In this document: positions 7,884 to 53,987 of the stretch, one piece after another
Numbering within the stretch: position 1 is the stretch's first letter
Layout: each line of letters starts with the position of its first letter
From: Dysgonomonadaceae bacterium PH5-43
GTDB lineage: Bacteria; Bacteroidota; Bacteroidia; Bacteroidales; Azobacteroidaceae
DNA: 64,000 nt
Reading direction: 5' to 3'
NCBI GenBank assembly: GCA_029916745.1
Contig: JARXWK010000006.1
Coordinates: forward strand, 1-64,000
The notes under the pieces: model-generated
Databases searched by the model: none
Seen by the model: the letters and a program-made list of their open reading frames with translations, nothing else
Told to the model about the DNA's origin: nothing
Program-made: the position numbers and the translations under genes

Positions 7884-8098
7884 CTTTTGAACTAAGAGTA
7901 AAGAACTAAGAATGAAGAACTAAGAGTGAAGAACTAAGAATGGGCGCGAAGCGTAATGGAATTGCGATGCACGATAATAATCGCAACACACAGTAAAGAC
8001 GCAGCGCGCCACGTCTCTACAATGCGAGTATTTTTATGCGCTTTGCGCCAACTCTTAGTACTTCACTCTTAATTCTTAGTTCTTAGTTCTTAGTGTAT
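7884..8098. repeat. Inverted repeat element with 14-bp tandem arms
   Basis: The left arm has ACTAAGA at 7891, 7905, 7919 and 7933, an exact 14-bp period. The right arm (about 8046-8098) carries the complementary TCTTAGT motif several times. Between the arms is a palindromic segment resembling AGACGCAGCGCGCCACGTCT, and a GCGCTTTGCGC motif. A related middle segment recurs near 26780-26850, so this is a dispersed intergenic element. The right arm overlaps the last codons and stop of tdh. No protein is encoded here. Confidence 0.7.
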
Positions 8099-16571: not shown

Positions 16572-18125
<1,554 letters not shown>

Positions 18126-18217
18126 TCAAAGTTTTATTGATTATTTATATATTTTCTATGTTAATGACACATTCTAAATCTAAGATTATTTCAATTACGC
18201 CTTCCCATAAAACAATC

Positions 18218-18471
18218 TTAGTAAAAGGAAGAACCGAAGTTAGTAGAAACCCCTTGCCGTTCTTAGTAGACACCCCTGTTCGCTCTTAGTAGATAGGCGA
18301 GATGCTTCTTAGTAGAGACCCGATGCAGCTCTTAGTAGAACCGCCTAATCTCTCTTAGTAGAACCACCCCGTCGTTCTTAGTAGAGAGACCTCGCCTATC
18401 TACTAAGAGACACGAGGGGTCTCTACTAAGAGAGACGACCCTAAGTGAAGCTTTGCATTTTTAGTAGAAAC
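18218..18471. repeat. 23-bp periodic array, copy 1
   Basis: Core octamers begin at 18240, 18263, 18286, 18309, 18332, 18355, 18378, 18401 and 18424, exactly 23 bp apart. The first seven read TTAGTAGA, usually within TCTTAGTAGA. The last two read TACTAAGA, the inverted core. A degenerate core (TTAGTAAA) lies at 18218 and another TTAGTAGA at 18461. The 13-bp segments between cores all differ and are GC-richer than the surrounding intergenic DNA. About 200 bp of it recurs in inverse orientation at 53630-53833. It occupies most of the 534-bp gap between guaB and the NlpE-like gene. No ORF, promoter or known RNA is evident within it. Confidence 0.9.
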
Positions 18472-18520
18472 ATACAGCAATAAATCTTCATTTAGATTAT
18501 ACTTTTTAATGTATTTAATT

Positions 18521-18570
18521 AAAAACAAAAGCCCCTTGCTTAATCAAAAACAAGGGGCTTTATTTAATTT
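18521..18570 (-). terminator. Rho-independent terminator of the NlpE-like gene
   Basis: Arms GCCCCTTG (18531-18538) and CAAGGGGC (18551-18558) enclose a 12-nt loop. On the minus strand the stem is followed by a T-rich run. It lies 14 bp beyond the stop of the lipoprotein gene. A-rich DNA on the other side means it could also work in the opposite direction. Confidence 0.85.
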
Positions 18571-18584
18571 ATTTATCTATATAA

Positions 18585-19373
18585 TTACATATAAACCGCT
18601 GCAAATTTTGCCACTGGATTCATATCCACGTCATAGAAAGTTAGAATATCAGCGTCGACATCTACAGTATAACTATCTACTTTTTGAAGCGCTTTATTAA
18701 ATTTGCTTTCAATATCCATATTTGGACACATCATCATTGTTGAAAACATTTGAGAAAAAGAAAGTTTGTTTCCTTGTTTAACTTTATATGTTCCACCAAA
18801 AGTATTACAAGCAAAGTTTCCATTTACCTTACAACCTTCTGTTCTTAGAGTTATAAACGCTTCTTTTGCACCTTCACCTTTATAAACAATAGGTTCGCCT
18901 TCTAATTCAGTTAATTTCCAATATTTCTCAATTAAATTTTCATCTAATTTAGTAAGAATATAATTCTCTGCTAATTCGCCTGCAACTTCTTTTCCTTCTT
19001 TATCTAAAAGGACAAGTTTATTTTCTGCCACTTTTATTACAGAAGGGTAAGTTTCGGCTTCAGTAGTTTCTAATGTAATAACACTACCTTGTTCGTCCCA
19101 AGCAAAAGTTCCCTCTGTAGAAAAAGTTTCTCTTTCAGCAGTTAGATAAACACGTTCCATTTTATAACTATTATCTTCGTTCAAAGTAATAGAAATGTTT
19201 ATACCTTCACAATCGGCACAAGGCATAACGCCTACATAAGTTCCTTTCCAGTCCAAAGAGTTTTGAGAAGTATCAGCTGTTGCGATAGTTTCTTCTGCAT
19301 TTTTTTGTTTACAAGCAGCAAAAGTTCCCACTAATAGAGCTGCACTAAATAATACTAATAATCTACTTTTCAT
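18585..19373 (-). CDS. Lipoprotein with NlpE-like and META/HslJ domains
   Basis: A 262-residue predicted outer-membrane lipoprotein with lipobox cysteine at about residue 20 (VGTFAACKQ). Residues about 40-145 form an NlpE N-terminal domain, including the CxxC motif in MPCADCEGINI that in E. coli NlpE senses redox and metal stress. Residues about 150-255 form a META/HslJ domain (KYWKLTELEGEPI, then CNTFGGTYKV and CPNMDIESKFNKAL). This two-domain arrangement is frequent in Bacteroidetes and suggests an envelope stress or copper-related role. It stands alone with its own terminator. A -7-like TACTTTTG lies at 19418-19425 on the minus strand. Confidence 0.85.
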   Translation of the reverse strand: MKSRLLVLFSAALLVGTFAACKQKNAEETIATADTSQNSLDWKGTYVGVMPCADCEGINISITLNEDNSYKMERVYLTAERETFSTEGTFAWDEQGSVITLETTEAETYPSVIKVAENKLVLLDKEGKEVAGELAENYILTKLDENLIEKYWKLTELEGEPIVYKGEGAKEAFITLRTEGCKVNGNFACNTFGGTYKVKQGNKLSFSQMFSTMMMCPNMDIESKFNKALQKVDSYTVDVDADILTFYDVDMNPVAKFAAVYM

Positions 19374-26887: not shown

Positions 26888-27052
26888 GTTTCACCCGTAT
26901 GAAACAGGTTGTTTTATTAGTATGAAACAAAGTGTTTCACCTATATGAAACAAGTGTTTTCAAACCGTGAAACGAATTATATCAAACCGAGAAACGGATC
27001 GTTTCAAAGTATGAAATGGATTATGTCTATGTATGAAACAAAAAGCGAAACG
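26888..27052. repeat. 22-23 bp periodic array of TATGAAAC-type cores
   Basis: GAAA cores begin at 26901, 26924, 26947, 26969, 26991, 27013 and 27035: spacings of 23, 23, 22, 22, 22 and 22 bp. Most are preceded by TAT or CGT. Many are paired with an upstream GTTTCA or TTTCA half, giving dyads such as GTTTCA-N6-TGAAAC. The intervening bases vary. The core is unrelated to the TCTTAGTAGA array, but spacing and position (between two transcription units) are alike. Nothing else is visible from 27053 to the terminator at 27161. Confidence 0.8.
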
Positions 27053-27160
27053 GTTTGAAGTAGGCTGTTTCGCTAATGGTGTTATGAGGTTAAAGTTTTA
27101 CCGGACAGCAATAAAACGGTATAAGGTTTTTAAGTTGCACTGTGTTTTCAATAGAAAAGC

Positions 27161-50254: not shown

Positions 50255-50962
50255 TTAGTCTTCTTGAACATCAGAGGTATTAGGTTCTGCCATAATAGCA
50301 ATAATATCTTTTACTATTGGGTCTGAAACAAAAGGCTCTCCTGCAATACTTAACAATTCTTCTATCTGCTCTTTGCTAAGAATATAATATTGATCTAAAA
50401 AAAGATTCTGACCAAAAGGATTAATAATATTTGCGTAGAGATATTCAGTTATCATCTTGTTCGACTCCTCCACTATTTTATTGTATTCAACTTCAAGGCT
50501 ATCTCTCTCTGCCGAATCGGTAGACGCATTGAATTCTTCATTTAACTTTTCTGTCATTTCCGTCATCGGAATTTGTTTATCTAACAACCGTTGATAGCTT
50601 TCGTTTTCGGCATTACCACCTATAATAGCATCATTACCTATTATCTCAAAAGTTATTTTACCCGGTTTAATAAGCACTGGTATTCCTAATGCCAAAGGAA
50701 AATAAACTTCTTTAGCATCTATATAAGCATAAAAAATAGCAGGTTCTTCTCTTAGTCCTTTTATTTCAAATTTATTATTATTGATAACTGCCGAATCCAT
50801 TTCTATATTATCATCATTATCCCATCGATAAATGTAAATGGTTTCGCCGTTTAAGTCGCGATCTCTTACAGACCCACTCATTACAAATTGATTTTTATCG
50901 GCACACGAAGCCATCAAACCAATCAAAGTTATAAACACTACAAAGTTTAATATAGTCTTCAT
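50255..50962 (-). CDS. DUF4369 lipoprotein lacking a thioredoxin domain
   Basis: A 235-residue lipoprotein with lipobox cysteine at residue 20 (LIGLMASCADKN). Residues about 28-125 form a DUF4369 domain (FVMSGSVRDRDLNGETIYIY, then FEIKGLREEPAIFYAYI), usually found in front of a TlpA-like thioredoxin. Here the chain ends after a helical segment (to about 235) with no WCxxC motif, so it is either a stand-alone variant or a shortened relative. It is transcribed alone from the divergent promoter region at 50992-51029. Confidence 0.75.
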   Translation of the reverse strand: MKTILNFVVFITLIGLMASCADKNQFVMSGSVRDRDLNGETIYIYRWDNDDNIEMDSAVINNNKFEIKGLREEPAIFYAYIDAKEVYFPLALGIPVLIKPGKITFEIIGNDAIIGGNAENESYQRLLDKQIPMTEMTEKLNEEFNASTDSAERDSLEVEYNKIVEESNKMITEYLYANIINPFGQNLFLDQYYILSKEQIEELLSIAGEPFVSDPIVKDIIAIMAEPNTSDVQED

Positions 50963-53582: not shown

Positions 53583-53612
53583 GACGTGTTATTGACGTAT
53601 TATAGACGTGTT
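53583..53612. promoter_or_regulatory. Three helically phased GACGT repeats upstream of trpB
   Basis: GACGT begins at 53583, 53594 and 53605, exactly 11 bp apart, each followed by an AT-rich half (GTTATT, ATTATA, GTTATT). They lie 86-115 bp before the trpB start. Regular 11-bp spacing on one helix face suggests an operator. A degenerate -7 (TTACTTTG) is at 53528-53535. Confidence 0.4.
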
Positions 53613-53629
53613 ATTGTTGTATTTTTATC

Positions 53630-53905
53630 CTAAAAATGCAAAGCTTCACTTAGGGTCGTCTCTCTACTAAGAGACCCCTCGTGTCTCTACTAAGAGAGGC
53701 GGTGTCTCTCTACTAAGAACGACGGGGTGGTTCTACTAAGAGAGATTAGGCGGTTCTATAAAGAGCTGCATCGGGTCTCTACTAAGAAGCACCTCGCCTA
53801 CCTACTAAGAACGAACAGGGGTATCTACTAAGAAGCAGTTCATCTCTCTTATAACAACGAAGAGGGGTATATAATAAGGAAGAGGCGAGGAGGTTATACT
53901 AACCT
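53630..53905. repeat. 23-bp periodic array, copy 2 (inverted)
   Basis: Plus-strand cores begin at 53665, 53688, 53711, 53734, 53757, 53780, 53803, 53826, 53849 and 53872, exactly 23 bp apart. Seven read TACTAAGA; those at 53757 (TATAAAGA), 53849 (TTATAACA) and 53872 (TAATAAGG) have drifted. The segments between cores are 13-bp, variable and GC-richer. The part 53630-53833 matches array copy 1 (18263-18464) in reverse complement, including a flank with TAAGTGAAGCTTTGCATTTT. It fills the gap between trpB and the FadL-like gene together with the hairpins to its right. Confidence 0.9.
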
Positions 53906-53987
53906 CTCTGCCTCTTCCTCATAAGATTGTTTATCGTACAGCAAAACTGTTTTCACATCACTATAAAACCAGATGTCGGTTTGCTGT
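53878..53987 (-). terminator. Hairpins beyond the FadL-like gene
   Basis: A strong hairpin has outer arms GGAAGAGGC (53878-53886) and GCCTCTTCC (53910-53918), with further inner pairing of GAGGTTA-like sequence. A second, looser one pairs ACAGCAAA (53938-53945) with TTTGCTGT (53980-53987). Neither has a long T-tract, but they lie just after the minus-strand FadL stop and probably end that transcript. The left hairpin overlaps the degenerate end of the array. Confidence 0.5.

Follow-up and report, generated by a model that had tools for sequence, protein, structure and literature searches.

The window, that is, the whole stretch of 64,000 nucleotides analysed here, carries an array of short cores between two minus-strand genes, which we take from their open reading frames (ORFs) to be an IMP dehydrogenase gene (16572-18080) and a META-domain-like gene (18585-19373). 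The cores start at 18238, 18261, 18284, 18307, 18330, 18353, 18376, 18399, and 18422, and every step is 23 bp. The preliminary description of nine cores exactly 23 bp apart is correct for the spacing between 18238 and 18422, but the 18238 core is degenerate with two mismatches (AGTTAGTAGA), and the last two cores (18399 and 18422) are inverted (TCTACTAAGA), so that the array turns round with its phase kept. An extra degenerate core lies at 18216, 22 bp before that at 18238, and a further core match at 18459 is off-phase (+37) and lies inside the tail. Comparison with other copies in the genome gives a natural unit of about 18194-18482, larger than the array of 18218-18471 described initially. 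A second, previously unmentioned copy is present on the minus strand. The features of the window are as follows.

About 18194-18482, plus strand: whole element, copy 1, short form; ends taken from comparison with other copies
18194-18213, plus strand: left end, a degenerate match (13/19) to an IS-type inverted repeat
18216-18237, plus strand: first unit, degenerate, with a TCTTAGTAAA core, 22 bp before the next
18238-18398, plus strand: seven forward 23-bp units (cores 18238-18376)
18399-18439, minus strand: two inverted cores (18399, 18422) with the 23-bp phase kept, predicted to fold back onto the forward units
18440-18482, plus strand: conserved tail beginning with CCTAAGTGAAGCTTTGCATTTTTAG, with the terminal tip ACAGCAATA at 18474-18482
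53612-53946, minus strand: second element copy, 12 units (lenient parser), left end TTTTGCTGTACGATAAACA, right tip ACAACAATA
26888-27114, no strand given: related second family of approximately 22-bp GAAAC-type units, ending in GTTTTACCGGACAGCAATAA, the same inverted repeat; intergenic

With at most one mismatch, TCTTAGTAGA matched 25 times in the window, against a mean of 7.25 in shuffled sequences, none of which (0/100) reached 25. In the 2.54-Mb genome holding the window, a two-unit pattern gave 93 forward and 91 reverse matches, and its reversed control gave 0. The shuffles and the reversed-pattern control rule out chance for the window array. The tail AATGCAAAGCTTCACTTAGG matched 85 times genome-wide with at most three mismatches (45 forward, 40 reverse). 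Copies were taken from the stretches around the 83 tail matches outside the window and from two further places, and 87 copies could be oriented, two of them in the window. This copy number is a lower bound, since loci L122-L126, L140, and L145 came from other patterns; L118, fetched for its tail match, yielded no oriented copy. The window array is one copy of a dispersed intergenic family with about 90 scattered copies, a single one of which, viewed alone, resembles a novel element. Several contigs of the assembly start or stop in or near copies.

The copies share a common anatomy, consisting of a left part, a variable count of 23-bp units, and a conserved tail. In 35 of the 87 copies, a conserved leader of about 200 bp, shortened in some, precedes the array (long form), and the other 52 are short forms. 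The lenient parser counted 9-14 units in 33 of the 35 long forms and in 45 of the 52 short forms. Among 910 core-to-core steps, 681 are 23 bp, 60 are 22 bp, 41 have other lengths, and 128 are bridged without a scored core. The flanks to the right of the tail differ among copies; in several classes, another dispersed repeat follows. On average, pairs of copies have an identity of 0.80 over the array and 0.79 over the leader, whose alignment takes in some unrelated flanking sequence, and so the family cannot be very young.

The segments between the cores are also a family property. Close to the tail, every position of the array has a small set of spacer types of its own, common to different loci. 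The spacer at the second core from the tail is GACACGAGGGGTC in 19 and GAGAGAAGGGGTC in 18 of 87 copies, that at the third core is GAGACCTCGCCTA in 25 and GACACCTCGCCTA in 17 of 87, and that at the fourth is ACCACCCCGTCGT in 21 of 86. Farther out than about the sixth position, the spacer types are blurred by shifts of one base. The initial observation that each core is followed by a different 13-bp segment thus holds along one array, which is indeed no plain tandem repeat, but the segments are position-specific and recur at other loci. Recent unit-by-unit growth, one of the two initial explanations of the spacing, does not account for the window copy, whose near-tail spacers were inherited with the element and stand in the same series elsewhere. 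Arrays can also gain units locally, as a two-unit (46-bp) duplication in L054 indicates.

Among the genomes searched, no other than the present one has the family. A scan of 392 further genomes, sampled from the larger order, found no two-unit pattern, and no match was obtained in 38 relatives, in 57 genomes searched by DNA similarity, or, with a looser pattern, in 37 genomes of the genus; the four sets overlap. The phased repeat, for which the preliminary description proposed a search of related genomes, is absent from the relatives searched. Two exact pattern matches elsewhere, in a Betaproteobacterial MAG and a viral contig, were rejected as family members, as they lie in other local sequence with neither the tail nor a long array. 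No description of this 23-bp array family was present among the matches listed in the open-access literature. Profile searches of the genome for transposases and reverse transcriptases used PF01797, PF00078, and PF01609. Since RVT_1 had no match in the genome and no adenine-specific change was found, reverse-transcriptase or DGR-like spread was rejected.

As judged from sequence comparison, a minority of copies have a left end that matches the terminal inverted repeat of an insertion sequence (IS) resident in the genome and belonging to the IS4 family. The product of this IS (L132, 404 aa) scores 199.2 bits as an NCBIfam IS4 family transposase against a cut-off of 115, and contains DDE_Tnp_1 and DUF4372 in Pfam. 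Both ends of the IS carry TATTACTGTCCGATAAAA, and GTTGAGAAT flanks it on both sides as its target-site duplication. Since two other resident DDE_Tnp_1 ISs (L130 and L131) also have ends somewhat similar to the element ends, L132 is only a candidate parent. A first terminal-repeat search with an ad hoc motif found little. The IS-end pattern with two mismatches had 29 matches in the genome and four in its reversed control; the IS itself and the sister array family account for several of the 29. For end scoring, copies too near a contig end were dropped, so that 47 of the 52 short forms and 86 of all 87 copies remained. Nine of the 47 short-form left ends reached at least 14/19, compared with one of 47 for the reversed pattern, and 38 fell below 14/19. 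The best-kept ones read approximately TATTGCTRTCCGGTAAAAC followed by AATCTTAG (L041, L046, L091, L092, and L102), and L120 is likewise among the better preserved. Three of 35 long forms have left ends within four mismatches of the IS end (L109, L111, and L115); at least 14/19 was reached by two of 35 in the scanned stretch, which missed L109 and L115. The end-pattern matches in L116 and L125 fall away from the element ends.

On the right side, the tip ACAGYAATA matches the IS repeat in some copies but is not enriched among 86 copies, with at least 7/9 positions matching in 12; the reversed pattern gave seven such matches, and a control stretch gave 14. Nine of the 12 best tips, including both window copies, lie at offset 34. 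This common offset points to a conserved right end, which is expected with or without an inverted repeat and hence is no proof of one. Both ends are present in L145, a small diverged array element with the core TCTTAGGAGA, the tail, and the ends ATTATTACTGTATGGTAAAA and TTAGACAGTAATA. A 56-bp inverted repeat in L139 (C23:46639-46694) consists of two IS4-type ends and represents a bare, minimal MITE, and L136 is a bare 141-bp element with IS-type ends. Visual inspection revealed no target-site duplication at L136 and L139, nor at the array copies with readable ends, where wear of the ends precludes a firm negative. By eye, the IS and the element are not alike beyond the end.

Like a MITE, the element is short, multicopy, non-coding, and intergenic, as only one of the 87 copies overlaps a mechanically called ORF of at least 90 aa. 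The sister family of GAAAC-type units with the same kind of end strengthens the filing as MITE-like with a minisatellite. The MITE assignment is well motivated but not closed, hence the label MITE-like. Origin as a fragment of a known IS or satellite family would have refuted the preliminary description, and this objection applies in part, as the array belongs to a dispersed family of which some copies have IS-type ends. We consider it probable that the array represents an intergenic MITE-like element, non-autonomous and with a 23-bp minisatellite inside. Its copies would have been spread by a transposase of the IS4 type that acts in trans on the IS-type ends, and the unit number would shift through slippage or recombination. 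The core orientation may flip by hairpin-loop inversion in replication. Between genes, the element would for the most part be tolerated and would affect neighbouring transcripts incidentally at most.

The orientation of the cores bears on the last part of this mechanism. The last core, enclosed by identical flanks (GTC/GAG), reads forward in 50 copies and inverted in 20, and the last two cores together display each of the four possible orientation pairs. From these counts we infer recurrent in-place inversion of the last core via a hairpin loop; recombination between copies could also shuffle the orientations. The occurrence of the core in both orientations across dozens of copies provides a natural record for studying hairpin-loop inversion. 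Locus L051 and the partial copy L114-1814 were left out of the core-orientation counts, as well as of the folding, half-pairing, leader-distance, and joint-alignment length-change counts.

The family could instead be a BOX-like modular repeat, whose hairpins in transcripts or DNA regulate or stabilise neighbouring messages and are kept by selection, a reading that we regard as rather unlikely. The boxB of BOX measures 45 bp, against 23 bp for the present unit. The strong folding of the copies agrees with such a function, as do the few length changes among copies and the fact that all but one of the 87 copies avoid ORFs of at least 90 aa. The sequence can form long hairpins on either strand. 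Compared with shuffled sequences, the window copy has RNA fold z-scores of -5.6 and -7.7 on the two strands and a DNA z-score of -5.3. In every second of the 82 eligible copies (41/82), the median z-scores are -4.1 and -4.0 on the two strands, and 93% and 88% of the values are below -2. However, the RNAalifold consensus energies, calculated from 82 copies with those too near a contig end left out, are near zero (-2.2 and -3.4 kcal/mol), and that of the leader is near zero too. In the same 82 copies, the left and right halves pair no better within a copy (-64.3 kcal/mol) than between copies (-65.0 kcal/mol), and this missing co-adaptation does not support a conserved RNA. Folding that is symmetrical between the strands, together with the missing co-adaptation, is more in keeping with DNA palindromes than with a conserved RNA. 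A search of eight of the 85 fetched stretches, all outside the window, gave no Rfam match within the element that passed the gathering score; these stretches yielded RNase P, a tRNA, and, in the L039 array, one miRNA match that fell far short of its gathering score. On the basis of Rfam, the consensus energies, and the missing left-right co-adaptation, a conserved RNA was rejected. Also against the BOX-like reading, the elements show no orientation bias between co-directional genes (10/8 in short and 8/9 in long forms), and inside window copy 1 there is no terminator-like site (one lies just outside, at 18528-18561). A promoter scan of this copy stayed at shuffle level. Short forms lie in 18 convergent, 5 divergent, 18 co-directional, and 11 undetermined gaps, and long forms in 5, 12, 17, and 1, respectively. 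Since convergent and divergent gaps are about equally frequent along a chromosome, the short forms favour the 3' ends of genes and the long forms do not.

The strict spacing, with 681 of 910 parsed steps at 23 bp, would also suit an array of sites bound by a DNA-architectural protein, in which the units keep a phase of about two helical turns. We consider this quite improbable, although substitutions outnumber length changes more strongly in the array than in the leader. The ratio of singleton substitutions to distinct length changes is 116:2 in the last four units and 83:10 in two overlapping leader stretches, where five of the 10 length changes occur in single copies. Of the five distances between leader anchors, four are the same in all 35 copies and one differs by a single base, so length constancy is not peculiar to the array, and its spacing may simply be inherited. 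When long and short forms are aligned together, the array shows more length changes, namely 76 to 1342 substitutions. The last two cores are found in either orientation, and the family is absent from the relatives searched, which also argue against a protein site. The array spacing may be slightly more protected than the leader, a small contrast. Most copies retain the spacing, which lends at most weak support to the selection for phasing by a protein proposed in the preliminary description. Array and leader also differed in transitions versus transversions among all distinct variants but not among singletons, and no conclusion was drawn from this. Palindromes of the REP/BIME type mobilised by a Y1 (RAYT) transposase would explain the intergenic hairpins, and the core contains GTAG, a motif linked to REPs in the consulted part of the literature (PMC3733652). 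This explanation is very improbable, since no Y1_Tnp match was found in the genome and the same search was positive in five of 14 control genomes; a Y1 transposase was rejected accordingly, barring its later loss. A locally grown satellite or a CRISPR-like memory array with independent inserts deserves almost no credence. The constant core, differing inserts, and regular period recall such arrays, but the core is only 10 bp and the inserts differ along one array, not independently between arrays, being common to loci by position. The preliminary description was thus right to set CRISPR aside.

It is unlikely, but conceivable, that the units are replication-active hairpins in which cores extrude and loops invert in place, making the array a self-recording ladder of loop flips, and that the 23-bp period is a stable geometry reached repeatedly by bacterial transposon parasites. 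BrickBuilt, the 23-bp family, and the family of approximately 22-bp GAAAC-type units have dissimilar units with an almost equal period.

The kind of element is known, and its sequence is new. While the preliminary description knew of no described element of this form, BrickBuilt has a 23-nt tandem unit and BOX is similarly modular, according to the available parts of PMC4596501 and PMC3049150, respectively. In the BrickBuilt MITE of Porphyromonas gingivalis, conserved and non-conserved sites of the 23-nt unit lie mostly in different halves, and a leader and a tail enclose the array (available part of PMC4596501). According to the same part of that source, BrickBuilt and the present family share a variable unit number, distinct leader and tail, intergenic location, multiple copies, and a restricted host range, and, in a minority of the present copies, ends like those of resident ISs. 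On the other hand, the best rotation aligns only 10-13 of 23 unit positions, which is the shuffle level, the ends match an IS of the IS4 family here and of the IS5 family in BrickBuilt, and the copies number 87 here and 19 there (available part of PMC4596501). Near-palindromic cores, position-specific spacers, and an inverted array end distinguish the present family from BrickBuilt as portrayed there. Since the BrickBuilt plan (23-nt unit, leader and tail, intergenic position) is present and the BrickBuilt unit sequence and IS5-type ends are absent, we file the family as a MITE-like element with an internal minisatellite and not as BrickBuilt.

The likeness is to BrickBuilt architecture and, more loosely, to pneumococcal BOX. 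In Streptococcus pneumoniae, BOX elements have end modules and a variable number of middle units, fold, are thought to be parasitic, and are overrepresented between convergent genes, as stated in the accessible part of PMC3049150. Compared in architecture only, the present family resembles BOX in its composite plan, its folding, and the preference of its short forms for convergent gaps; transcription has been demonstrated for BOX (same part of PMC3049150), whereas the present family is known from sequence alone. SIRC of Arabidopsis, a plant nuclear element compared by its description only (part of PMC10342631), is among the closest systems. The IS982-derived MITE of a Cardinium endosymbiont is, like the present family, lineage-specific and attributed to a resident IS, but it derives from another IS family, and the abstract mentions no internal array (PMC9769881). 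These comparisons suggest that the MITE-with-minisatellite design of P. gingivalis arose more than once. In the present genome, it would be represented by two sister array families with a nearly equal period and the same kind of IS-type end.

Several other repeats lie close to the arrays. Further copies of the GAAAC-type family are located in L136, L137, L138, L140, and L143. At L126 (1650-1850), a GAAAC-type element lies inside or abuts a long-form array, and at L140 (C15, end motif 50483-50499), one lies inside or abuts a long-form leader, both as in nested insertion. A long-form element is apparently split by an IS between L125, at the end of contig C16, and L108, at the start of C37. This IS has the ends AACCTGAGTTTCG, a resident copy in L133, and TAATA on both sides, and the two contigs may adjoin. 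Two array copies (L050 and L080) lie beside TCGAACTCACGT, which is identical to the right end of MITE700 according to the available part of PMC4596501. Another dispersed repeat, at 7889-8094 of the window, contains GAACTAAGAGTGAA in tandem, GGCGCGAAGCG, and an inverted part of the GTAGAGACG type, and repeats of this type directly abut the tail of many array copies.
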